Source of the DNA: Methylacidiphilum infernorum V4
GTDB taxonomy: Bacteria > Verrucomicrobiota > Verrucomicrobiia > Methylacidiphilales > Methylacidiphilaceae
Assembly: GCF_000019665.1 (NCBI RefSeq)
Contig: NC_010794.1
Coordinates: forward strand, 1,612,001-1,676,000
Direction of reading: 5' to 3'
DNA length: 64,000 nucleotides
Part shown: piece after piece, positions 4,249 through 64,000 of the stretch
How positions within the stretch are numbered: the first letter of the stretch is position 1
Layout of the letters: each line of letters opens with the position of its first letter
Notes under the pieces: model-generated
Database searches by the model: none
The model's input: only the letters and a program-made list of their open reading frames with translations
What the model was told of the DNA's origin: nothing
Translations under genes and position numbers: made by a program

Positions 4249-5151
4249 ATGTTCAAACGCATCTTTTTGTTAACGCTTACGAACATCGCCGTTATTTTTC
4301 TTTTGACGTTGTTTATTTCGTTATTGCACCTGGACCGATGGCTTAATGCTTATGGAATAGACTATCAAACGCTCTTTTTATTTTCCATGGTCGTCGGCTT
4401 TACGGGTAGTTTTATCTCCCTGGCTATATCCAAGTGGATGGCCAAAATGGCTTACAACATCCACGTTATACAAGAACCCTCGAACGAAGCTGAAAGATGG
4501 TTGGTTGAAACCGTTGCTGAGCTCGCCAAGCGGGCGAATATCCGCATGCCTGAAGTCGGTATTTACGAGAGCCCCGAAGTCAACGCTTTTGCTACCGGTC
4601 CCTCTAGATCCAACGCTCTTGTAGCCGTCAGCACGGGTATTCTTTCACAGATGAATAAAAAGCAGATTGCAGGCGTTCTTGCCCATGAAATCACCCATAT
4701 AAACAACGGGGATATGGTAACAATGACTTTGCTGCAAGGTGTCGTAAACACCTTCGTGGTCTTTCTTTCCCGCATCATAGGGTTCTTTGTTGATCGGCTG
4801 TTTAGTCGTAATGAAGAAAGAGAGTCTATCGGCATAGGCTTTTACTTGGGAATGTTTATTTCAGAAATCGTACTTGGTCTTTTAGCTTCTATTATTGTAG
4901 CATGGTATTCCCGAATGAGGGAATTCCGTGCCGATGCCGGCGGAGCTCATCTTGCAGGCAAAGAAGCTATGATCTCTGCACTCAAAAAGCTAAAACAGAT
5001 CATGGAAGGAGAGTCCGCTTTTATCGATGAGCGTTCTCCTGCGTTGAATGCTTTTAAGATTAACGGAAGACCCGGGGGGATTCTTGCCCTTCTTGCCACC
5101 CATCCTCCGCTCGATGAAAGAATAAAGGCCCTGGAAAGAATTCCCGATTAA
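4249..5151 (+). CDS. htpX: membrane zinc protease HtpX (M48)
   Basis: An inner-membrane quality-control protease that degrades misfolded membrane proteins. Two N-terminal membrane segments (about residues 5-25 and 40-62) precede the cytosolic domain. The HEITH zinc motif falls at residues 146-150, and the third ligand is the Glu of REFRADAGG near 224. Two further hydrophobic segments lie between them (about 160-180 and 196-218). The NAFATGP and THPPLDERI signatures of HtpX are present. At 300 residues it has normal length. It is monocistronic, with an AT-rich stretch just upstream. The 174 bases to the next gene hold nothing clear. Confidence 0.95.
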   Translation: MFKRIFLLTLTNIAVIFLLTLFISLLHLDRWLNAYGIDYQTLFLFSMVVGFTGSFISLAISKWMAKMAYNIHVIQEPSNEAERWLVETVAELAKRANIRMPEVGIYESPEVNAFATGPSRSNALVAVSTGILSQMNKKQIAGVLAHEITHINNGDMVTMTLLQGVVNTFVVFLSRIIGFFVDRLFSRNEERESIGIGFYLGMFISEIVLGLLASIIVAWYSRMREFRADAGGAHLAGKEAMISALKKLKQIMEGESAFIDERSPALNAFKINGRPGGILALLATHPPLDERIKALERIPD

Positions 5152-5325
5152 TCTTACGGGAGGGGTTTGTAGAGGATTGAGCAAGACTACCCAAAGCTTA
5201 TAATATCTTGATCTAGATTCCAACATCCAGGCAATAACTAAACAGGATAAGCAGCTAGCCGCTTGCTCCCTTTTCCATGCAATCTGCCGGCAAGATCTTT
5301 TTAATCGATTGGCAAGGAGGAGTTG

Positions 5326-6753
5326 TTATTCGAGATTAAAAGACAGGTATTTTGTTTCTAAAAATTCCCTTATTCCCCATTGCCCTCCTTCCCGACCAAT
5401 ACCCGATTCTTTGATACCACCAAAGGGAGCTTGGCAGCACGAAGGCCTACCATCGTTGATACCCACGATACCGAATTGCAAGGCATGGGAAAGTCGAAAT
5501 GCTCTCTTGAGATCGGAAGTCATGATATAAGAGGCCAGTCCATAACTTGTTGAATTTGCCAGCCTCACTACCTCTTTTTCGGATTCAAAGGAGAGAACGG
5601 GTAAAACCGGTCCAAAGATCTCCTCGGTAAGGATCTCTGAAGCAGGATCGTTGATTCGGATAATCGTGGGGTTAAAGTATAATCCCTTGGCTTCTCCTCC
5701 ATAGAGAATTTTGCCTCCCTTGGATAGAGCATCAGAAAGCAACCGCCGGATTTTCTCAAGGGATTTTTCGCTGACAAGCGGTCCTATATCCGTTTCCTCA
5801 TCCAGGGGATTGCCTACTTTGAGCTTTTTTGTTTCTTCAACGAGCTTGTTACAAAAGAGCTCAACGATCCCTTTTTCAACATAAAGCCTGTTAACCGCTA
5901 TGCAGGCTTGACCGGCGTTTCTAAATTTGGCTTGAATTGTTTCTCTTACCGCCAGATCCAGGTCGGAATCCGCAAATACAATCATTGGAGCATTTCCTCC
6001 CAATTCTAGAAGAACTCCTTTTAATGTTTTAGCCGATTGCTCGTAAAGAGCTTTCCCGACAGGAACACTTCCGGTGAAAGAGACCTTTCTTATTCTAGAA
6101 TCATCGAAAAAGGTTCTGCACAACTCTTCCGGCTTCGATGTAGGGAGAACCTGTAATACTCCTGGAGGACCTCCCGCTTTATCCCAAAGATCGACGAGGA
6201 AAAGAGCGGTTAAAGGACTATGCTCGGAAGGCTTAACAACAACCGTGCAACCTGCAGCAATCGCCGAGGCGGCTTTCCTTGTCACCATGGCGGATGGGAA
6301 ATTCCATGGAGTAATGCACAAGACAGGTCCAACAGGCTCGTAACTCACGATAATTCTCTTGGAAGCTATAGAGGGGGGAATAGTCATTCCATAAATCCGT
6401 TTCGCTTCCTCGGCATACCACCTGACAAAACTTGAAGCATAATCAACTTCCTTTTTCCCTTCCTTTACAGGCTTTCCCATTTCAAAAGCCATGATTTCAG
6501 CCAATGTGTTTTTTTCTTTCATGATAAGTTCAGCCCACAAAGAAAGAATTTCAAAACGACGTTCGGCCGGGGTTTCTTTCCATTGTTCAAAAGCCTTCTG
6601 AGATTCCTCTATGGCCCATAGAGCTTCCTTTGGGGTGCAGTCCGAAACAAGCCCAATAACTTTTCCATCCACGGGACTGATCAACTCGAAACTCCCTAGG
6701 TTGTCTATCCAGTTGTTTCCAATCTTCGCCTGAGTAATGAATTTCTTTTTCAT
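5326..6753 (-). CDS. gabD: aldehyde dehydrogenase, succinate-semialdehyde type
   Basis: An NAD(P)-dependent oxidation of an aldehyde to its acid; the closest pattern is succinate-semialdehyde dehydrogenase. It has ITPWNFP and VVKPSEHSP (cofactor site), FTGSVPVGK, the catalytic Glu in LELGGNAPM and the catalytic Cys in NAGQACIA, then EEIFGPVLPV near the end. ATG at 6753 gives 475 residues, close to the family norm. ATG at 6777 is an alternative. The frame stays open up to 6921 but would then overlap the next gene upstream. No GABA transaminase lies nearby, so the physiological substrate is open. In methylotrophs such an enzyme could close a 2-oxoglutarate bypass. Confidence 0.88.
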   Translation of the reverse strand: MKKKFITQAKIGNNWIDNLGSFELISPVDGKVIGLVSDCTPKEALWAIEESQKAFEQWKETPAERRFEILSLWAELIMKEKNTLAEIMAFEMGKPVKEGKKEVDYASSFVRWYAEEAKRIYGMTIPPSIASKRIIVSYEPVGPVLCITPWNFPSAMVTRKAASAIAAGCTVVVKPSEHSPLTALFLVDLWDKAGGPPGVLQVLPTSKPEELCRTFFDDSRIRKVSFTGSVPVGKALYEQSAKTLKGVLLELGGNAPMIVFADSDLDLAVRETIQAKFRNAGQACIAVNRLYVEKGIVELFCNKLVEETKKLKVGNPLDEETDIGPLVSEKSLEKIRRLLSDALSKGGKILYGGEAKGLYFNPTIIRINDPASEILTEEIFGPVLPVLSFESEKEVVRLANSTSYGLASYIMTSDLKRAFRLSHALQFGIVGINDGRPSCCQAPFGGIKESGIGREGGQWGIREFLETKYLSFNLE

Positions 6754-11000: not shown

Positions 11001-12362
11001 CTAGGAAGCCTCTTTAAGCAGATTTTCAAAAGGTCTTTTTGCGGTGAGCCTCTTTTGATATTCCAAATAATTATACACGATTTCTGCTGTTTTTCTTCCC
11101 ACTCCTACATTTTTCATAAATACCGATTTTGCTTTTTTCCCCATCATTTTTCTGGCTTTTTCATCTTCGATCAACTCTTGGAGTTTGTGAGAAAAATCCG
11201 CCTCGTCCTTGACCACGGTAAGGGCTTCACAGTCTAAGAAGAGTTTAAATAACAATTTAAAATTTTGCATGTTTGGACCAACCAGTATCGCTTTCCCTGC
11301 CCTAGCCGCTTCTATAAAATTCTGTCCTCCCTTTGCCGTTAAACTTTTACCCACAAACACAAGATCTGCCTTTTCATAAAGCGCCCTTAACTCCCCGGTT
11401 GTATCCACTATAAGAATATCCGACGAAGGCTGTAGATCATTAATTGTCTCAAGCTCGGTTCTCATTACCGGGCTGATTCCATAATCCAGGCAAAGGCTTT
11501 TAATCTCCCTTGCTCTTTCTGCATGACGAGGGGCTAAAATTAAGCGAAGATTAGGCCACTTTTGTTTCAGTCGGATAAATGCCTTGACCAGGATTTCTTC
11601 TTCACCACGGTGAGTACTGCCTCCAAGAATAATTAAACTGCCTTGATCCCATCCCAGTTTTCCCCACCATGTCGTGGTTCTCTCCAAGTCAGTTCTATAA
11701 TCGGCAACATCAAATTTCATGCTCCCCATGCAAAATATTCTCTCAGGAGGAAATCCAACCCTTGCAAATCTCTCCGTTTCAGATTCGTGGGTAACGAGAA
11801 TTAAGCTTAACTGGTTAAGAAAAGGCTTCATGAACCAAGAAAAAAACTTGTACCATTTTTCCGTCCTTTCCGAAAGCCTTGCGTTACAGAGGATAATGGG
11901 AATTTTTCTTTTTGTCGATTCTTCGATAAAATTTGGCCAAATTTCCGTTTCGATAAGAACGACTAACCGAGGATTTAAAAAGGAAAAGGTCCTTTTTACG
12001 GCCCAAGGAAAGTCAAGGGGAAAATAATAAACCGAGCACTTATCCCTTGGTTCAGATAACGCCATTCTGAGCCCTGTTGAAGTGGTTGTGGTAAAGGCAA
12101 CCTTGATTTCGGGATCTATCTTCCAAAGTTCTTTTAAAATGACTTTCCCAATCAAGACCTCTCCCACACTCACCCCATGTATCCATAAGTCTACGCCCTT
12201 TAAATAAGAATTTTTTTTCCTTGGATACATCCCGAACCGCTGCCCGATCCCTTCAAAAGGATTACCCCTTCTGCGCAATTTCACGTAGTAATAGGGCAAG
12301 CTAAACAGTGTAAAAATAATGAAAAGTAAAGTATAAAGAACCCGGATAACAAAAGAACGCAT
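11001..12362 (-). CDS. waaA: 3-deoxy-D-manno-octulosonic acid (Kdo) transferase
   Basis: Adds Kdo from CMP-Kdo to lipid A on the cytoplasmic face of the inner membrane. It has one N-terminal membrane segment (residues ~5-22), then DLWIHGVSVGEV, which carries the family Gly/Ser/Glu motif, and further on FTTTTSTGL, IETEIWPNF (catalytic Glu region), GSMKFD, GGSTHRGEEE, APRHAERA and FVGKSLTAKGGQN. ATG 12362 gives 453 residues, near the usual 420-450. A TTG at 12377 overlapping the xerC stop is the alternative and would mean translational coupling. Its presence implies a Gram-negative envelope with LPS. Confidence 0.94.
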   Translation of the reverse strand: MRSFVIRVLYTLLFIIFTLFSLPYYYVKLRRRGNPFEGIGQRFGMYPRKKNSYLKGVDLWIHGVSVGEVLIGKVILKELWKIDPEIKVAFTTTTSTGLRMALSEPRDKCSVYYFPLDFPWAVKRTFSFLNPRLVVLIETEIWPNFIEESTKRKIPIILCNARLSERTEKWYKFFSWFMKPFLNQLSLILVTHESETERFARVGFPPERIFCMGSMKFDVADYRTDLERTTTWWGKLGWDQGSLIILGGSTHRGEEEILVKAFIRLKQKWPNLRLILAPRHAERAREIKSLCLDYGISPVMRTELETINDLQPSSDILIVDTTGELRALYEKADLVFVGKSLTAKGGQNFIEAARAGKAILVGPNMQNFKLLFKLFLDCEALTVVKDEADFSHKLQELIEDEKARKMMGKKAKSVFMKNVGVGRKTAEIVYNYLEYQKRLTAKRPFENLLKEAS

Positions 12363-12373
12363 AGGTTTACTGT

Positions 12374-13315
12374 TCAAGCCCTAGGGTGAGTTCTAAAATA
12401 AGATTCTTTTAGATGCTCTGCGCTGACCGCCGTATATATTTGAGTGGTCGAAAGATGAGCATGACCCAACAATTCTTGAATACTCCTCAAATCCGCTCCT
12501 CCTTCTAACAGGTGGGTTGCAAAGGTATGCCTTAATTTATGGGGGCTTATCGACTGATCTAACCCGGCAATGGCTAAATACTCTTTTAAAGAAAGTTGGA
12601 AAAAACGGGGCGTAAGAGGTTTTCCTCTGGAAGAAACGAAAAGAAATTCCGACTCAAAAGGACAGCTTTCTAAATAAGAACATAGGGAGGCGGTGGCGAC
12701 TTCCCCGAGAATACAATACCTTTCTTTTTTCCTTTTCCCTTCGACGAGAAGGGCTAGATCTGAGGGAAAAAAGTTTTTCCTTTTAAGAGAACTCAGCTCT
12801 CCGACCCTAAGACCCGCTCCATAAAGAGTTTCTAACCACGCTTGGTCTCTTTTCCATTGCCACTCATTCCACCTGGATTTTTTCCCCTTTTCTTTTTCCT
12901 TTTCCCATTTTTTTTGCGGAGCATTGAGCAAGGCTTGAACCTGTTCTAAGCTCAAGTATCTCGGCAGATTACGATCGGGCTTAGGCAACATAACCTGGGA
13001 AAAAGGGCTTTCCTTGTTTATCTTTTTCTCTCTGTAAAAAAAATTAAAAAAGGAACGCAAAGCCGCAAATCGGACCCGAATAGAACTCGGTTTTAAATCC
13101 GGCCTTTTGCAAAGAAAATAAAGATAATCTCGACATTCTTCTATCTTCGGCTCTTTACACTGCTGCCACTTCACGAAAGAAAAAAATTCTTTCAACGGCT
13201 GGACATAGTTTCTCACCGTGTATAAAGAAAAACTTTTAGCTAAAAGATAATGGATATACCTTTCAATCCATCCCGAGATTTCCGGCGACAAGGAAGTTCT
13301 TTTCTTAGAATCCAT
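12374..13315 (-). CDS. xerC: tyrosine recombinase, XerC/XerD type
   Basis: A site-specific recombinase probably resolving chromosome dimers at dif. The SAM-like N-domain (residues ~12-100) binds DNA. The catalytic domain holds R170 (GAGLRVGEL), K194, H259 and R262 (HKLRHTF), H285 (LLGHAHL) and the nucleophile Y294 (TTQIYT), so it is complete. A lysine- and tryptophan-rich insertion near residues 136-157 lengthens the start of the catalytic domain. It has no neighbouring integron or prophage signs. I found no dif-like palindrome beside it. XerC versus XerD cannot be decided from one protein. Confidence 0.88.
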   Translation of the reverse strand: MDSKKRTSLSPEISGWIERYIHYLLAKSFSLYTVRNYVQPLKEFFSFVKWQQCKEPKIEECRDYLYFLCKRPDLKPSSIRVRFAALRSFFNFFYREKKINKESPFSQVMLPKPDRNLPRYLSLEQVQALLNAPQKKWEKEKEKGKKSRWNEWQWKRDQAWLETLYGAGLRVGELSSLKRKNFFPSDLALLVEGKRKKERYCILGEVATASLCSYLESCPFESEFLFVSSRGKPLTPRFFQLSLKEYLAIAGLDQSISPHKLRHTFATHLLEGGADLRSIQELLGHAHLSTTQIYTAVSAEHLKESYFRTHPRA

Positions 13316-58827: not shown

Positions 58828-60000
58828 TTATACCGGAAGCTCTGGGTTGCACAAGGCTTCGCAGATAACGTGATAAATGGAAAGCTGGACTTCCTGGATC
58901 CGGGGAATATAATTGCTGGGGACGACGATCGATACGTCAGCGAGCCCTCTTCTTTTGATCTCTCCGCCGTCATGACCCACTAAGGCAAGAGTAGAAAGTC
59001 CCCTCCTTTTTGCCTCTTCAAAGCCCCGTAACAGGTTTGTCGAATTCCCGCTGGTCGAAATGCCCACCAAAACATCATTCGATTGAGCATGGGCTAATAA
59101 TTGCCGAGAAAAAACAACTTCAGCTCCTACGTCATTTAAAAGCGCTGTAATGAGGGCAGGTTCCATTGCAAGAGAGACTGCTGGGAAAGGTCTTGCTTTT
59201 TTTACCGGTGGACTGATTAGATCCAGGACAAAATCATTGGCATCCGTTGCCGAACCCCCGTTACCCATAACCATAACCTTTCCCCCTCGAATCCTCGTTT
59301 CTTCAAGCAGTTCGATAGCTTGAAGGATAGCTAGAGGCTCCTCTGCAACTCTCTCTCTTAATCTATTGTCTTCCTTTAGCTTTTCTAAGATAGATTGAGA
59401 TACCGCATCCAATAAAGGCCCGATGTCATGACCACTCGAGCGAAGAGAAGGATAAAGAAATTCAAGCCCTCCTATTTCATATCCCAATGGGCGGTGCTCC
59501 AAAAAAACATGAATCGTTTCCCAGAACGTATGGTATATGGTCTCTACGATTTCTTGAAAAATCCAGGGATCGCTTACGGGAGATTCCACCGCATAATTTC
59601 CTTTTTTACCCGGGAAGGCAAAGGTCATCGCTCCTTTTACCGATGCCCATTGAAGAGCTTCCTCGATCTCCTTGTCCCCCTCAATGGGACCAAAACCAAA
59701 AACCATGTCTTCTTTCTTGCAAAGGCAGCTTAACCAGCTAGAAAAATGCGCAGAAATATCCAAAGCGGGCAACGCTTTCTTGCCCACGATTACAGGATGA
59801 ACAAATTCAACAGCAACATGCTGGGCATCGCTGAGGGCTGATCCTTTCCCAAAAGCAAGCAATCTACCCCCTCTTAAGAATCTTTCGGAAGCCTCCTGGC
59901 TTGCTTGTGCTATTTTAAAAGCCTCGGAGAAAAAAAATTTCTCGGCTATTTCGTTCCTTTCCTGAAGTTTTTGCTTAATCCAGAAAGTGTCCACTGCCAT
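58828..60000 (-). CDS. tandem SIS-domain (GmhA-like) protein of the hyp operon
   Basis: Two sugar-isomerase (SIS) halves in one 390-residue chain, starting at ATG 60000, 2 bases after the hypE stop. E. coli GmhA uses H61, E65, Q172 and H180. The N-half keeps all four equivalents (H61, E65, Q149, H157) but has lost the STSGNS phosphate loop (it reads FGPIEGDKE). The C-half keeps ISTSGNSTN (315-320), GNGGSATDAND, Q369 and H377, but the His and Glu equivalents are Asp (256, 260). The halves may therefore make one composite site. Function in hydrogenase maturation is unknown. A phosphoheptose-isomerase role is less likely because the gene sits in the hyp operon. Confidence 0.82.
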   Translation of the reverse strand: MAVDTFWIKQKLQERNEIAEKFFFSEAFKIAQASQEASERFLRGGRLLAFGKGSALSDAQHVAVEFVHPVIVGKKALPALDISAHFSSWLSCLCKKEDMVFGFGPIEGDKEIEEALQWASVKGAMTFAFPGKKGNYAVESPVSDPWIFQEIVETIYHTFWETIHVFLEHRPLGYEIGGLEFLYPSLRSSGHDIGPLLDAVSQSILEKLKEDNRLRERVAEEPLAILQAIELLEETRIRGGKVMVMGNGGSATDANDFVLDLISPPVKKARPFPAVSLAMEPALITALLNDVGAEVVFSRQLLAHAQSNDVLVGISTSGNSTNLLRGFEEAKRRGLSTLALVGHDGGEIKRRGLADVSIVVPSNYIPRIQEVQLSIYHVICEALCNPELPV

Positions 60001-60002
60001 TT

Positions 60003-61019
60003 TCAACAGATCCGGGGAAGGGGTTCTCCAACTAACATATCAATAATCCGGCTCCCTCCATATTTTGTAAAACCCAAAACCGTGGCCGGCGGGTATTCTC
60101 GAATTTCTCCAATTTCCACCGCTCCTTCACCTCCAGGAGTGGATCTTAAGATCTCAATAACTTCCCTGGATCTTTTTGCTTCGACTACGGCTAAAAATTG
60201 CCCTTCGCAAGCGATATAAAGAGGATCGATCCCTAAAATCTCGCTCGCCCCCCTAACCTCATCCCTCATTGGAACCTGTTCCTCCCTAATCGCTATAGCC
60301 AATCCGCAGTCCCTTGCTAGTTCGTTTAAAGCCGTAGCGACACCACCCCGGGTCGGATCGCGCATCCATTTAACCGCCGTAGGGGCTTTTTTGAGTATCG
60401 GATCAATCAAGGACCAAAGGGGACGACTGTCACTTTTTAAATCCGCTTCAAGTTCGAGTTCCCCTCTTGCCATTAAAATCGTTATTCCATGGTCACCTAT
60501 CGGCCCGGAAAGAATGATTTTGTCTGAAGGTCTTACCCTTTGCACGCCGAGATTCACATCCAAAGCTATGCTTCCAATGCCCGTTGTGGTTATAAATAAT
60601 GAATCAGCTTTTCCTTTTTCAACGACCTTAATATCTCCTCCAATAATGGGGACAGGAACAAGGCTGGCCGCCTCAGCCATCGCTGCAATTTCTCTTTTAA
60701 ACACGTCCAGGGGAAGTCCTTCTTCAATAATCCAGCTTGAAAGGATGGCTAAAGGCTTTGCCCCGCTAACGGACAGATCGTTCACCGTGCCATTGACGGC
60801 GAGTTTGCCAATCGATCCTCCGGGAAAAATTATAGGGTGGACCACAAAGCTATCCGTGGTCAACGCAAGCTTTCCTTCGGGCTGCTCCACCATAGCTGCA
60901 TCAGAAAGAACCTCCAGGGAGGGATTGCGTAAGGCGGGAAGAATGATAGATTCAATTAACCGTCGGGTTGACTTCCCTCCTGAACCATGAGTCAGGTTAA
61001 TCCGCTGGTCGTGTTCCAT
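60003..61019 (-). CDS. hypE: hydrogenase expression/formation protein HypE
   Basis: Dehydrates the S-carbamoyl group on its own C-terminal Cys to a thiocyanate, with ATP, donating CN to the NiFe active-site iron. It has THGSGGKSTRRLI at the N-terminus, TTDSFVVHPIIFPGGSIGKLAVNGTVNDLSVSGA (PurM-like ATP fold), GGDIKVV, DPTRGGVATALNELA and the invariant C-terminal PRIC ending with the acceptor Cys338. It has 338 residues. It starts 29 bases after hypD and runs into the SIS gene. Confidence 0.96.
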   Translation of the reverse strand: MEHDQRINLTHGSGGKSTRRLIESIILPALRNPSLEVLSDAAMVEQPEGKLALTTDSFVVHPIIFPGGSIGKLAVNGTVNDLSVSGAKPLAILSSWIIEEGLPLDVFKREIAAMAEAASLVPVPIIGGDIKVVEKGKADSLFITTTGIGSIALDVNLGVQRVRPSDKIILSGPIGDHGITILMARGELELEADLKSDSRPLWSLIDPILKKAPTAVKWMRDPTRGGVATALNELARDCGLAIAIREEQVPMRDEVRGASEILGIDPLYIACEGQFLAVVEAKRSREVIEILRSTPGGEGAVEIGEIREYPPATVLGFTKYGGSRIIDMLVGEPLPRIC

Positions 61020-61048: not shown

Positions 61049-62155
61049 TCATCCCGAGAGCCCATGAAAAGCATGATGATAATAAGCGGCACAGGCCCCT
61101 TCGGAAGAAACCATTAACGCTCCTACGGGATGTTCCGGAGTGCAGTAAGTACCAAAAAGCTTGCATTGAAAAGGCTTTAATACTCCCTTAAGAACTTCTC
61201 CACACTGGGAAGCCTTAGGATCAGAGACCGAAATACCCCTGAATGCATAACGCTTTTCGGCATCCCAATCCTGAAATTCCTGCTTTATTCTTAGAGCCGA
61301 GCGAGCAATAAATCCAAGTCCCCTCCATTCGAAATAAGGACGCAGTTCAAAGACTTCAGCCATAAGCCTTAGCGCCGCCGTATTCCCGTTCCAAGGGACA
61401 ACACGATTATACTGGTTTTCGACTTGAGCTTTACCCCGGTTCAGTTGCCGGAGTATCCTTAAAATCGACTCCAGGATGTCCAATGGTTCAAACCCTGAGA
61501 TAACAATGGGTTTCCCATACTCTTTTGAGACAAACTCATAAGGCCTACAACCGATTATCGTAGAAACATGGCCCGGGCCAATAAATCCATCCAATCTCAT
61601 ATCCGGAGATTCTAGAATCGCTCGGATGGCAGGAATGATCAGCACATGATTACAGAACACGGAAAAATTTTGGACACGGTGTTGTTTCGCCTTAAGAATA
61701 GTCAAAGCGGTAGCCGGGGCCGTCGTTTCAAAGCCGATGGCAAAAAAAAGAACCTCTCTTTGGGGATTATCCATGGCGATTTTTAAGCTATCCAGGGGTG
61801 AATACACCATCCGGACCTCTACTCCCTTGGCTTTAGCTTCCAGGGGGCTTCCGTTTTGGCCCGGCACCCGCATCATGTCCCCAAAACAGCTAAATAGGAG
61901 ATTTTTTTCTCGGGCAACATCTAAACACTCATCGACCCTTCCCATGGGTAAAACGCAAACGGGACAACCCGGTCCGTGGATCAATTCTACATTAGGGGGA
62001 AGAAGATCATGGAGACCAAATCGGTAGATAGAATAGGTATGTCCTCCACAGACTTCCATGATCCGGTAACAGCGTTGGGGATCGGCATAGTGCAGTATCT
62101 CCTTGGAAAGATTCTTGATGAGTAGGCCGTCTCGAAATTCGTCAACAAATTGCAT
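61049..62155 (-). CDS. hypD: hydrogenase formation protein HypD
   Basis: A 4Fe-4S scaffold on which, with HypC, the Fe(CN)2CO unit is built. It has EVCGGHTYSIYR with C36, then HGPGCPVCVLP with C64 and C67, FSCFGDMMRVPG and FFAIGFETTAPATA. The C-terminal FGTYCTPEHPVGALMVSSEGACAAYYHH carries the cluster-side cysteines. It has 368 residues. It lies between hypC (43 bases upstream) and hypE (29 bases downstream). Confidence 0.97.
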   Translation of the reverse strand: MQFVDEFRDGLLIKNLSKEILHYADPQRCYRIMEVCGGHTYSIYRFGLHDLLPPNVELIHGPGCPVCVLPMGRVDECLDVAREKNLLFSCFGDMMRVPGQNGSPLEAKAKGVEVRMVYSPLDSLKIAMDNPQREVLFFAIGFETTAPATALTILKAKQHRVQNFSVFCNHVLIIPAIRAILESPDMRLDGFIGPGHVSTIIGCRPYEFVSKEYGKPIVISGFEPLDILESILRILRQLNRGKAQVENQYNRVVPWNGNTAALRLMAEVFELRPYFEWRGLGFIARSALRIKQEFQDWDAEKRYAFRGISVSDPKASQCGEVLKGVLKPFQCKLFGTYCTPEHPVGALMVSSEGACAAYYHHAFHGLSG

Positions 62156-62198: not shown

Positions 62199-62489
62199 TT
62201 ACTCTTCTTCGCCGAATCGATATCCCTCTAATTCTTGGAGGGCTTGTTGTTGTTCTCCAAGTATTGCAAGCATCTGGAGTTGTTCCCTTGCTTCAGACTC
62301 CGAGATTTTTGCCAAGGCAAACCCGACATGAACCAACACCCAATCCCCAGGATGTATGCCCTCCTCTTGAATAAGTTCAATATTGATCTTTCGCCTGACC
62401 GAGGAAACCTCGACAACGGCAAAATGCATGAAAGGATTTTCTCCTAAATTTAAAACTTCAACTATTTTACCGGGAATAGCCAGGCACAT
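62199..62489 (-). CDS. hypC: hydrogenase assembly chaperone HypC/HupF
   Basis: A small chaperone that carries the iron unit from HypD to the hydrogenase large subunit. The Met-Cys start (MCLAIPGKIVEV) gives the essential Cys2. GDWVLVHVGFALAKISESEA is the family OB-fold core. It has 96 residues. A Gln/Leu-rich C-terminal helix is slightly longer than in E. coli HypC. It lies 36 bases after hypF and 43 before hypD. Confidence 0.95.
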   Translation of the reverse strand: MCLAIPGKIVEVLNLGENPFMHFAVVEVSSVRRKINIELIQEEGIHPGDWVLVHVGFALAKISESEAREQLQMLAILGEQQQALQELEGYRFGEEE

Positions 62490-62525: not shown

Positions 62526-64000
62526 TCAATGATTCGATTCCATCCTGGGAATTTGAGGGTCAATTTCCCGCCCCTCCTTCCCATAAAGGGCTCCTATTAA
62601 TTGGCCAAAGCTTATATTTTCATCGTTAGGAGAGATCTCGTCATGGAAAAAAAGATCAAACCTACCTGCCCACTGCAAATAAAGGAGATCAACAAGCAAG
62701 CTATTTTGGAACACTCCCCCCGAGAAAGCGATCTTCCTTGCCCCGGTATTTTCAGCCAATTTCCCGATGAGTTTTGATAACCAAAAATGGAACCCTAGGG
62801 ATATTTCCTCCTTGGGTATTTCCTCTACAATGGACTTCTCTATAGATTTCAAAAGATTTTCCAATGAAATGGGCCGGCGCAAGGGTGCCTTTTCGTCAAA
62901 CCAACGGAGAGGAATTTTTTCTAAATCGCTTAAAGATTGCACGGAGCTTGATGCCAGTCTTTGAAGGGCAATTGCCGCTTCACCTTCAAAGGAGGCTCGA
63001 TCACATAGACCGAGCAAAGAGGCCAGGGCATCGAAAAGCCTACCGACACTACAACAAGCCCAATATTTCTTTCTATCGAGAAGAGCCCGGTAAGTTTTCC
63101 ACTCCCAAGGGTTAAACTTTGGTTTTAAAAAATCTTCAACAATCTTTCTTTCTTTCCGGAATATTCCAAGAGCCGAGATCCTAGGCTCCCTTACGGCTTT
63201 ATCTCCCAAAAGAAGAGGAAAATACTCAAAATGGTTCACCCTTTCCATTCTCCCTTTATAATAGAGGAAGAATTCTCCCCCCCACACCGCTCCATCTTCA
63301 CCGTATCCGGTTCCATCCCATATTACCCCAAGAACGGGCTCTTCTAGTCCTAGGAGTTTTTTTTCGGCGAGTATCGCCCAGAAATGAGCTTTATGATGCT
63401 GAAAATAGATTCTCTCGATGTTCTTTTCTTCAGACATCGCCTCACCAATAAGGCGGGAACGGTAAAGAGGGTGAAGGTCCAAGATTATCTTCTGGGGTTT
63501 GAACCCCCAAAGGTTAAAAAAATGAGATAGAGTTTTTTTGAAATTTTCTTCAGCTTCAAAACAGTCCAGATCTCCTAAATATTGGGAAAGAAAGATGTTC
63601 CCTTCATGGCAAAAACAAACAGTCGATTTTTTCTCGGCGCCCAAGGCTAAGTAACACTCCCCCTTAGGAACCCTTAAGGAAGCATTCAAGAAAGGAGCAA
63701 AAGAACGGCTTCTTCTCAAAAAAATGGTTTGTTTGAAAAAAAAAGAAACCCGAATCACCGAATCGTCTTGAGGAACCACGATGTCCCTGTTATGCGTCAA
63801 GACCTTGTCAAAGACATGCCCAAGTTTCAAAAAAAGCATTCCTTCTTCAAAAACAATGGGCAAGCCCGATATGTTCGCACTCGTGGCTACCAGTGGCCTT
63901 TTCAGGTAGTCGAGCAAAAGAATATGCAGGGGAGTATAAGGGAGCATGATCCCAAGGGTGTCTTGCGCAGGAGCCACAAGATCGGCTATGGGACTTTGCG
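62526..64000 (-). CDS. hypF: carbamoyltransferase HypF, partial (5-prime end outside)
   Basis: Transfers a carbamoyl group from carbamoyl phosphate to the Cys of HypE via carbamoyl-AMP. The reading frame is open to the window edge. What is visible begins inside the YrdC-like domain (APAQDTLGIMLPYTPLH, RPLVATSANISGLP), then continues with the Kae1-like domain: YFQHHKAHFWA, then GVIWDGTGYGEDGAVWGGEF and FSGGVFQNSLLVD. The acylphosphatase and zinc-finger domains lie outside. About 490 of ~770 residues are present. It is followed by hypC-hypD-hypE. hypA and hypB are not seen. Confidence 0.95.
   Translation of the reverse strand, partial: QSPIADLVAPAQDTLGIMLPYTPLHILLLDYLKRPLVATSANISGLPIVFEEGMLFLKLGHVFDKVLTHNRDIVVPQDDSVIRVSFFFKQTIFLRRSRSFAPFLNASLRVPKGECYLALGAEKKSTVCFCHEGNIFLSQYLGDLDCFEAEENFKKTLSHFFNLWGFKPQKIILDLHPLYRSRLIGEAMSEEKNIERIYFQHHKAHFWAILAEKKLLGLEEPVLGVIWDGTGYGEDGAVWGGEFFLYYKGRMERVNHFEYFPLLLGDKAVREPRISALGIFRKERKIVEDFLKPKFNPWEWKTYRALLDRKKYWACCSVGRLFDALASLLGLCDRASFEGEAAIALQRLASSSVQSLSDLEKIPLRWFDEKAPLRRPISLENLLKSIEKSIVEEIPKEEISLGFHFWLSKLIGKLAENTGARKIAFSGGVFQNSLLVDLLYLQWAGRFDLFFHDEISPNDENISFGQLIGALYGKEGREIDPQIPRMESNH

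Follow-up and report, generated by a model that had tools for sequence, protein, structure and literature searches.

What part might a relative of the heptose isomerase GmhA play in an operon devoted to the maturation of [NiFe] hydrogenases? The question is raised by a gene for two SIS domains in tandem in a 64,000-nucleotide stretch of Methylacidiphilum infernorum V4 (contig NC_010794.1, positions 1,612,001 to 1,676,000 of the forward strand), which we call the window and whose first letter is position 1. From the place of the gene, the partition of conserved residues between its two halves and a predicted fold, we consider it probable that the tandem-SIS protein is a dedicated accessory of the HypCDEF machinery, derived from a metalloenzyme of the GmhA type, whose halves would share one GmhA-like site that serves maturation. 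The features concerned are the following.

58828..60000 (stop codon counted in), minus strand: tandem-SIS protein, 390 aa (ORF, Pfam SIS_2, AlphaFold2 model)
59454..60000, minus strand: N-SIS unit, residues 1-182, with the metal-triad residues H61/E65/H157, Q149 and H68-P69, and no phosphate loop (alignments)
58831..59453, minus strand: C-SIS unit, residues 183-390, with G246-N-G-G-S250, D290, S315-T-S-G-N-S320 and Q369, and the second candidate ligand set D256/D260/H377 (alignments; superposition on GmhA 1tk9)
60003..61019, minus strand: hypE, carbamoyl dehydratase (NCBIfam TIGR02124, 403 bits)
61049..62155, minus strand: hypD (NCBIfam TIGR00075, 486 bits)
62199..62489, minus strand: hypC (Pfam PF01455 and TIGR00074)
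62526..64000, minus strand: hypF, continuing past the window edge, 790 aa in the genome (TIGR00143 and full ORF)

The tandem-SIS gene and its operon

The gene runs on the minus strand, which the preliminary description had not given, from an ATG at 60000 to the end of its stop codon at 58828. As that description had said, it starts 2 bases after hypE, whose coding sequence ends at 60003; an alternative TTG start at 60006 would run into hypE. The operon reads hypB, a gene for a NiCoT-like transporter, hypF, hypC, hypD, hypE and the tandem-SIS gene, and the identities of HypC, HypD, HypE and HypF are backed by Pfam or NCBIfam. In the 390-aa protein itself, the best Pfam match is SIS_2 in the C half (PF13580, 82 bits), and the scan found nothing besides SIS and SIS_2, in particular no GlmS-type glutaminase partner domain.

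The genome is a single contig of 2,287,145 bp in which the hypD of this operon marks the sole hypD locus. A separate gmhA lies at 1534776, and HypX was not found in the genome, so its one hyp operon has no HypX partner. The genome carries a group 1d-like hydrogenase at 1228.8 kb (G000:C1 1228834-1230423) and a small, 435-aa relative of the large subunit at 2213 kb (2212972-2214114), and group 1h hydrogenase is absent from it. In congeners, a group 1h hydrogenase adjoins this same operon (in G042 and, judged by position and length, in G152; G054 is also of this genus), so that here the SIS gene has been retained without its usual 1h neighbor. A close pair of tandem-SIS genes gives dN 0.033 and dS 0.228, which is purifying selection, and the divergence of the protein from its congeners resembles that of HypF. 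Just 5′ of the 1h small-subunit gene of G042 (L243, G042:960000-971000, positions 5612-5755) there is a 48-codon C-SIS-like stretch, possibly a remnant.

Partition of the GmhA residues and the predicted fold

The N half has H61, E65, Q149 and H157; the C half has Q369, H377 and the STSGNS loop at 315-320, which occurs in that half only, and in it the histidine and glutamate are replaced by D256 and D260. These residue numbers, given in the preliminary description, are exact when counted from the ATG at 60000. Across 101 fused homologues, identity reaches 99% or more in only 67 of 392 columns (17%), and since all eight named positions, together with the serines and threonine of the loop, fall among those 67, their conservation exceeds chance.

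To compare the units with GmhA, we aligned them in E. coli numbering; the positions of the E. coli row agree with those of 22 other GmhA rows. The H/E/Q/H positions do correspond in this alignment, and the losses in the two halves prove complementary, as had been proposed. All 104 distinct N units (94 fused and 10 split) keep H61, E65 and H180; the phosphate loop is gone from all 104, and D94 as well from the fused ones. Conversely, all 103 distinct C units (94 fused and 9 split) keep N52, G54, S55, D94, S119, T120, S121, G122, S124 and Q172, and at the positions of H61 and E65 every fused protein has D and D, while the split ones vary. Single SIS forms and 23 GmhA proteins have the full set, apart from one D for H61 and one A for S124. 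Because N units were retrieved by the pattern H..VEF.HP and C units by STSG, those columns were partly preselected; no such bias affects H180, Q172, D94 and GNGGS, which are invariant, or the losses seen in the partner unit.

What makes the partition meaningful is the architecture of GmhA. Its zinc ligands are H, E and H from one monomer and Q from a neighboring chain (PMC5387315), each site is made of residues from three chains (PMC11056994), and paired sites operate in a half-of-sites manner (PMC5705639). The losses in the N and C halves follow this chain boundary, from which we expect the two to build a single composite site, a conclusion that the sequences support well. Such a site would make the Q172 position of the N unit and the H180 position of the C unit dispensable, and the split forms, which might have contradicted this expectation, fit it: the former is T or K in 7 of the 10 distinct split N units, and the latter is Y in the split C units of mycobacteria. 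We therefore envisage, on the strength of residue conservation and the published GmhA structures, that the halves would pack as a pseudo-dimer with a single GmhA-like site between them, the N half giving the metal triad H61/E65/H157 and the C half giving Q369, the GNGGS turn, D290 and the STSGNS loop. The site may be built within one chain or between the chains of a dimer, and its expected ligands are a metal together with a phosphorylated sugar or a comparable polyol. A second set in the fused proteins, D256, D260 and H377 of the C half with Q149 of the N half, is essentially invariant and comes without a phosphate loop. The split pairs L122 and L123 share this set, and the C units of these pairs are sister to the fused ones; in the fused proteins the set could possibly hold a second metal.

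The monomer is predicted to consist of two SIS modules: an AlphaFold2 model, built from an alignment of 45 sequences from our own loci, has a mean pLDDT of 92.7 and a pTM of 0.92. The whole modelled chain aligns with the tandem-SIS modules of GFAT/GlmS and with GKRP at Z ~26, the C half superposes on GmhA 1tk9 with an rmsd of 1.5 Å over 188 residues (Z 22.6), and DiaA is also among the structural matches. The tandem arrangement is thus of a known kind, and the halves are GmhA-derived. In the tree, N units form one clade and C units another, the fused forms are nested among the split ones, and GmhA is a separate clade (100/99); the branching order of single, N and C units is left without support. 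In the history that we propose, an ancestral single-domain SIS protein, itself a metalloenzyme of the GmhA (sedoheptulose-7-phosphate isomerase) type, would have duplicated, the two copies would have degenerated in complementary ways, and the genes would have fused afterwards; the nesting of fused among split forms fits duplication first and fusion later. This decay along a chain boundary would be a clear case of a symmetric homo-oligomeric site turning into an obligate asymmetric pair.

Architectures and genomic context of the family

We scanned one genome per species with a profile and obtained 484 relatives, of which the best 80 were fetched as loci. At least one other hyp gene is present in 76 of these best 80 loci of 484, though many of the contigs are short, which upholds the membership in hyp operons first claimed for the gene; the homologues sit in hyp loci rather than in heptose loci. 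Among the same best 80, hypE is directly upstream in 57 of the 75 testable loci, a glutaredoxin-like gene follows immediately in the same orientation in 55 of 73, and group 1h genes occur in 40 and 2a genes in 3. In a sample of 246 genomes drawn around an actinobacterial MAG, HypD accompanies the N unit in 34 of 35 carriers, against 96 of 211 non-carriers (Fisher p ~1e-9). The carriers include Acidobacteria, Thermomicrobia and other Chloroflexi, Gemmatimonadota, Rubrobacter, Thermoleophilia, Meiothermus, Thermus, Bacillota, Eremiobacterota, Rhodothermales, a Pirellulales MAG and Methylacidiphilum; several are MAGs whose taxon labels may be wrong, and the sample around one labelled Betaproteobacteria (G335) holds Acidobacteria loci, not proteobacterial ones. 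A restriction of the SIS gene to group 1h can be rejected, since it also occurs with 2a (Thermus, Sulfobacillus, L048, L068, L089) and is kept without 1h in the genome of the window.

The family comes in three architectures. In the first, a single SIS protein of ~230 aa with the complete residue set is encoded between hypC and hypD or between hypD and hypE (Cupriavidus necator pHG1, Afipia OM5, Sphingopyxis, Methylocystis and genomes of the Acidobacteria-type sample). In the second, the site is split over an N-SIS protein and a C-SIS protein with a HypC-like protein between them, the N-SIS and HypC-like parts being one protein in mycobacteria. In the third, as in the window, a fused N-SIS::C-SIS protein follows hypE. 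The tie to HypE that had been suggested thus holds for the fused form, of which adjacency to hypE is typical, but not for the single and split forms, which mostly lie between hypC and hypD. Together with the fusions, the operon place ties the protein to HypC and to a thiol-redox partner: in the congener G072, a glutaredoxin-like domain is fused onto the tandem SIS.

Several loci merit separate mention. At L041 (11472-12872), the tandem SIS and a CPFT glutaredoxin-like domain, related to the Uxx-star family, form one protein, and in most other loci this domain is a separate downstream gene. The HypC-like protein (L122 8573-8860, L034 9962-10672), encoded between the SIS units or fused to them, has no N-terminal Met-Cys, has a C-x(n)-C-x2-C motif, and is possibly a HypC subfamily of its own. 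On a plasmid of Sulfobacillus acidophilus (CP003180.1; L033, ~12001-13130), an unannotated fused SIS gene is frameshifted in its C half, through either sequencing error or decay. At L210 (G377:C308, ~4300-5300), the N-SIS gene is down to its last 20-odd codons, with repetitive sequence upstream and the HypC-like and C-SIS matches after it. An apparent HypE-SIS fusion at L103 (765-aa ORF) was discarded because its upstream part is a GC-rich out-of-frame extension, hypE lying in another frame; the ORFs of 592-615 aa at L115, L116 and L118 look like artefacts of the same type.

Possible roles in maturation and comparison with known systems

Earlier work had come upon the association without explaining it, and our literature searches for a characterized SIS protein in hydrogenase maturation gave unexplained mentions only. 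A network study of 2011 lists GmhA with HypD and HypE and calls the reason unclear (PMC3231954), an array table for M. smegmatis has MSMEG_2706 gmhA beside hypE (PMC5445863), and a neighborhood study of 2025 has SIS domains in a table of [NiFe]-hydrogenase neighbors (PMC12727194); the relevant passages and tables of these three sources hold no description of a split site. The role had at first been called undescribed, which is too strong for the association, reported in 2011, and stands for the split composite site, which we did not find in the literature searched. A review of [NiFe]-cofactor assembly from 2025 enumerates the known accessory proteins of O2-tolerant hydrogenases, and a search of its text found no SIS or sugar protein; it regards as unresolved both where CO comes from when HypX is absent and what donates electrons to HypD (PMC12134894).

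We propose that the tandem-SIS protein would aid the HypCDEF machinery in making the Fe(CN)2CO part of the [NiFe] center, the product or bound ligand of the composite site helping to supply ligands to HypC-HypD or to time the events there. That the metal and substrate residues are conserved as a full set speaks for a reaction on a phosphorylated sugar or polyol, and as the step concerned we tentatively favor a phosphosugar-derived precursor for aerobic maturation (the CO ligand or an equivalent). Nothing points specifically to the cyanide-ligand or carbamoyl-related role first suggested, and a preference for cyanide assembly over other maturation steps is unsupported. Across many phyla, hyp operons, among them those that go with high-affinity group 1h hydrogenases, carry a conserved, uncharacterized gene whose product appears to have a complete site for a metal and a phosphosugar, with HypC-like or glutaredoxin-like partners adjoining or fused. 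Laboratory strains have equivalents of it, MSMEG_2706 in Mycobacterium smegmatis and H16_RS31885 in C. necator. The gene points to a sugar-phosphate step of hydrogenase assembly that has so far been missed, or to a switch worked by a sugar phosphate.

The switch deserves to be weighed first. Regulatory SIS proteins exist, and GKRP gates glucokinase; by analogy, the tandem-SIS protein might sense a sugar phosphate and gate HypC, HypD or HypE without catalysis. The match of the whole model to the GKRP and GlmS tandem-SIS folds suits this, as does the fusion with a HypC-like domain, which would befit an adaptor. However, the entire GmhA catalytic and metal set, and not the phosphate loop alone, is invariant in three architectures across many phyla, more than a pure sensor would need, and we think a sensor unlikely.

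The next candidate is a more specific version of the reading that we favor: the protein would replace HypX and, in air, use a phosphosugar or some other carbon source to make or deliver the CO ligand or the precursor of its carbon, which would pass to HypC-HypD. HypX is absent at E<=1e-10 from 53 SIS-bearing genomes, and the sole hyp operon of the present genome fits with them. Three 1h genomes with HypX beside the hyp genes have no SIS there (Actinomycetota-type sample), and of the 18 SIS carriers that also have 1h, a single one has HypX, encoded at an unrelated location (Fisher p 0.05, uncorrected for kinship). Cupriavidus and Bradyrhizobium plasmids have both genes in different operons, and the origin of CO where HypX is absent is an open question in the field (PMC12134894). 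Against this, the counts are small and still contain common ancestry, HypX may simply be rare in these phyla, and the 1h hyp operons of G373 and G514 and the related genome G265 have neither gene, which also means that the SIS protein is not universally needed. A strict mutual exclusion of SIS and HypX does not hold in view of these three and of G421, C. necator and Bradyrhizobium, which have both. We know of no SIS enzyme that makes CO, and we hold the replacement of HypX, attractive as it is, to be quite unlikely. More explicit chemistry, in which a metal-dependent enzyme docked on HypC-HypD would convert a phosphorylated sugar by way of a metal-bound enediol into CO or its precursor, and the additional D/D/H/Q site of the fused form may hold the metal that is handled, strikes us as improbable; if true, it would give many aerobic H2 oxidizers a HypX-independent route to Fe(CN)2CO.

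A scaffold retained for protein contacts in the Hyp complex has a precedent in E. coli DiaA, a GmhA paralogue that serves as an adaptor and turns up among the structural matches, but it would hardly explain why the residues for metal and substrate show 100% conservation, in complementary halves, when the copies that are not needed decay, and we give it little credence. That an ordinary heptose isomerase stands beside hypE by chance can practically be dismissed: the homology is real (171.3 bits to TIGR00441, the NCBIfam gmhA model), but the score is under the curated equivalog cut-off of 209.45, the genome has a real gmhA elsewhere, the hyp context recurs in many phyla, and the hyp-type proteins form a separate clade in which all N and single units have H for G68 and P for R69.

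The relation to GmhA is nonetheless the closest. With its two halves combined, the tandem-SIS protein has the SIS_2 fold, the H/E/H and Q ligands and the STSG-S loop of GmhA; a single-SIS relative scores 148 bits against TIGR00441. In GmhA, metal tetrad and phosphate loop belong to one SIS domain, whereas the fused and split hyp forms divide them between asymmetric N and C copies, each with half a site, and are encoded in hyp operons rather than beside heptose genes. At positions 68-69, every one of the 123 N and single units has H-P and none of 23 GmhA proteins does; the latter have G, N or C and then, in 23 of 23, R or K; as the motif also helped to retrieve the N units, the single units and GmhA are the independent part of this comparison. 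We propose a hyp-operon SIS family defined by a place in a hyp gene cluster and the H..VEF.HP signature in the N or single unit, and the protein of the window has both. The single-SIS gene H16_RS31885 of the 1h ("AH") operon of C. necator pHG1 and its relatives share the signature, the operon type and the complete set, but have one domain, presumably in a homo-oligomer, and lie between hypC and hypD. The isomerase module of GlmS, and GKRP, likewise pack two SIS modules in one chain, judging from the model, but identity to them is only 10-14%, and the hyp-type halves are GmhA-like with a metal-site signature and have no glutaminase or glucokinase link. HypX, finally, is also an accessory maturation protein of O2-tolerant hydrogenases encoded with hyp genes; it differs in its formyltransferase and enoyl-CoA-hydratase domains, neither of which Pfam and NCBIfam scans found in the tandem-SIS protein, and here it was never seen in the same operon as a SIS gene.
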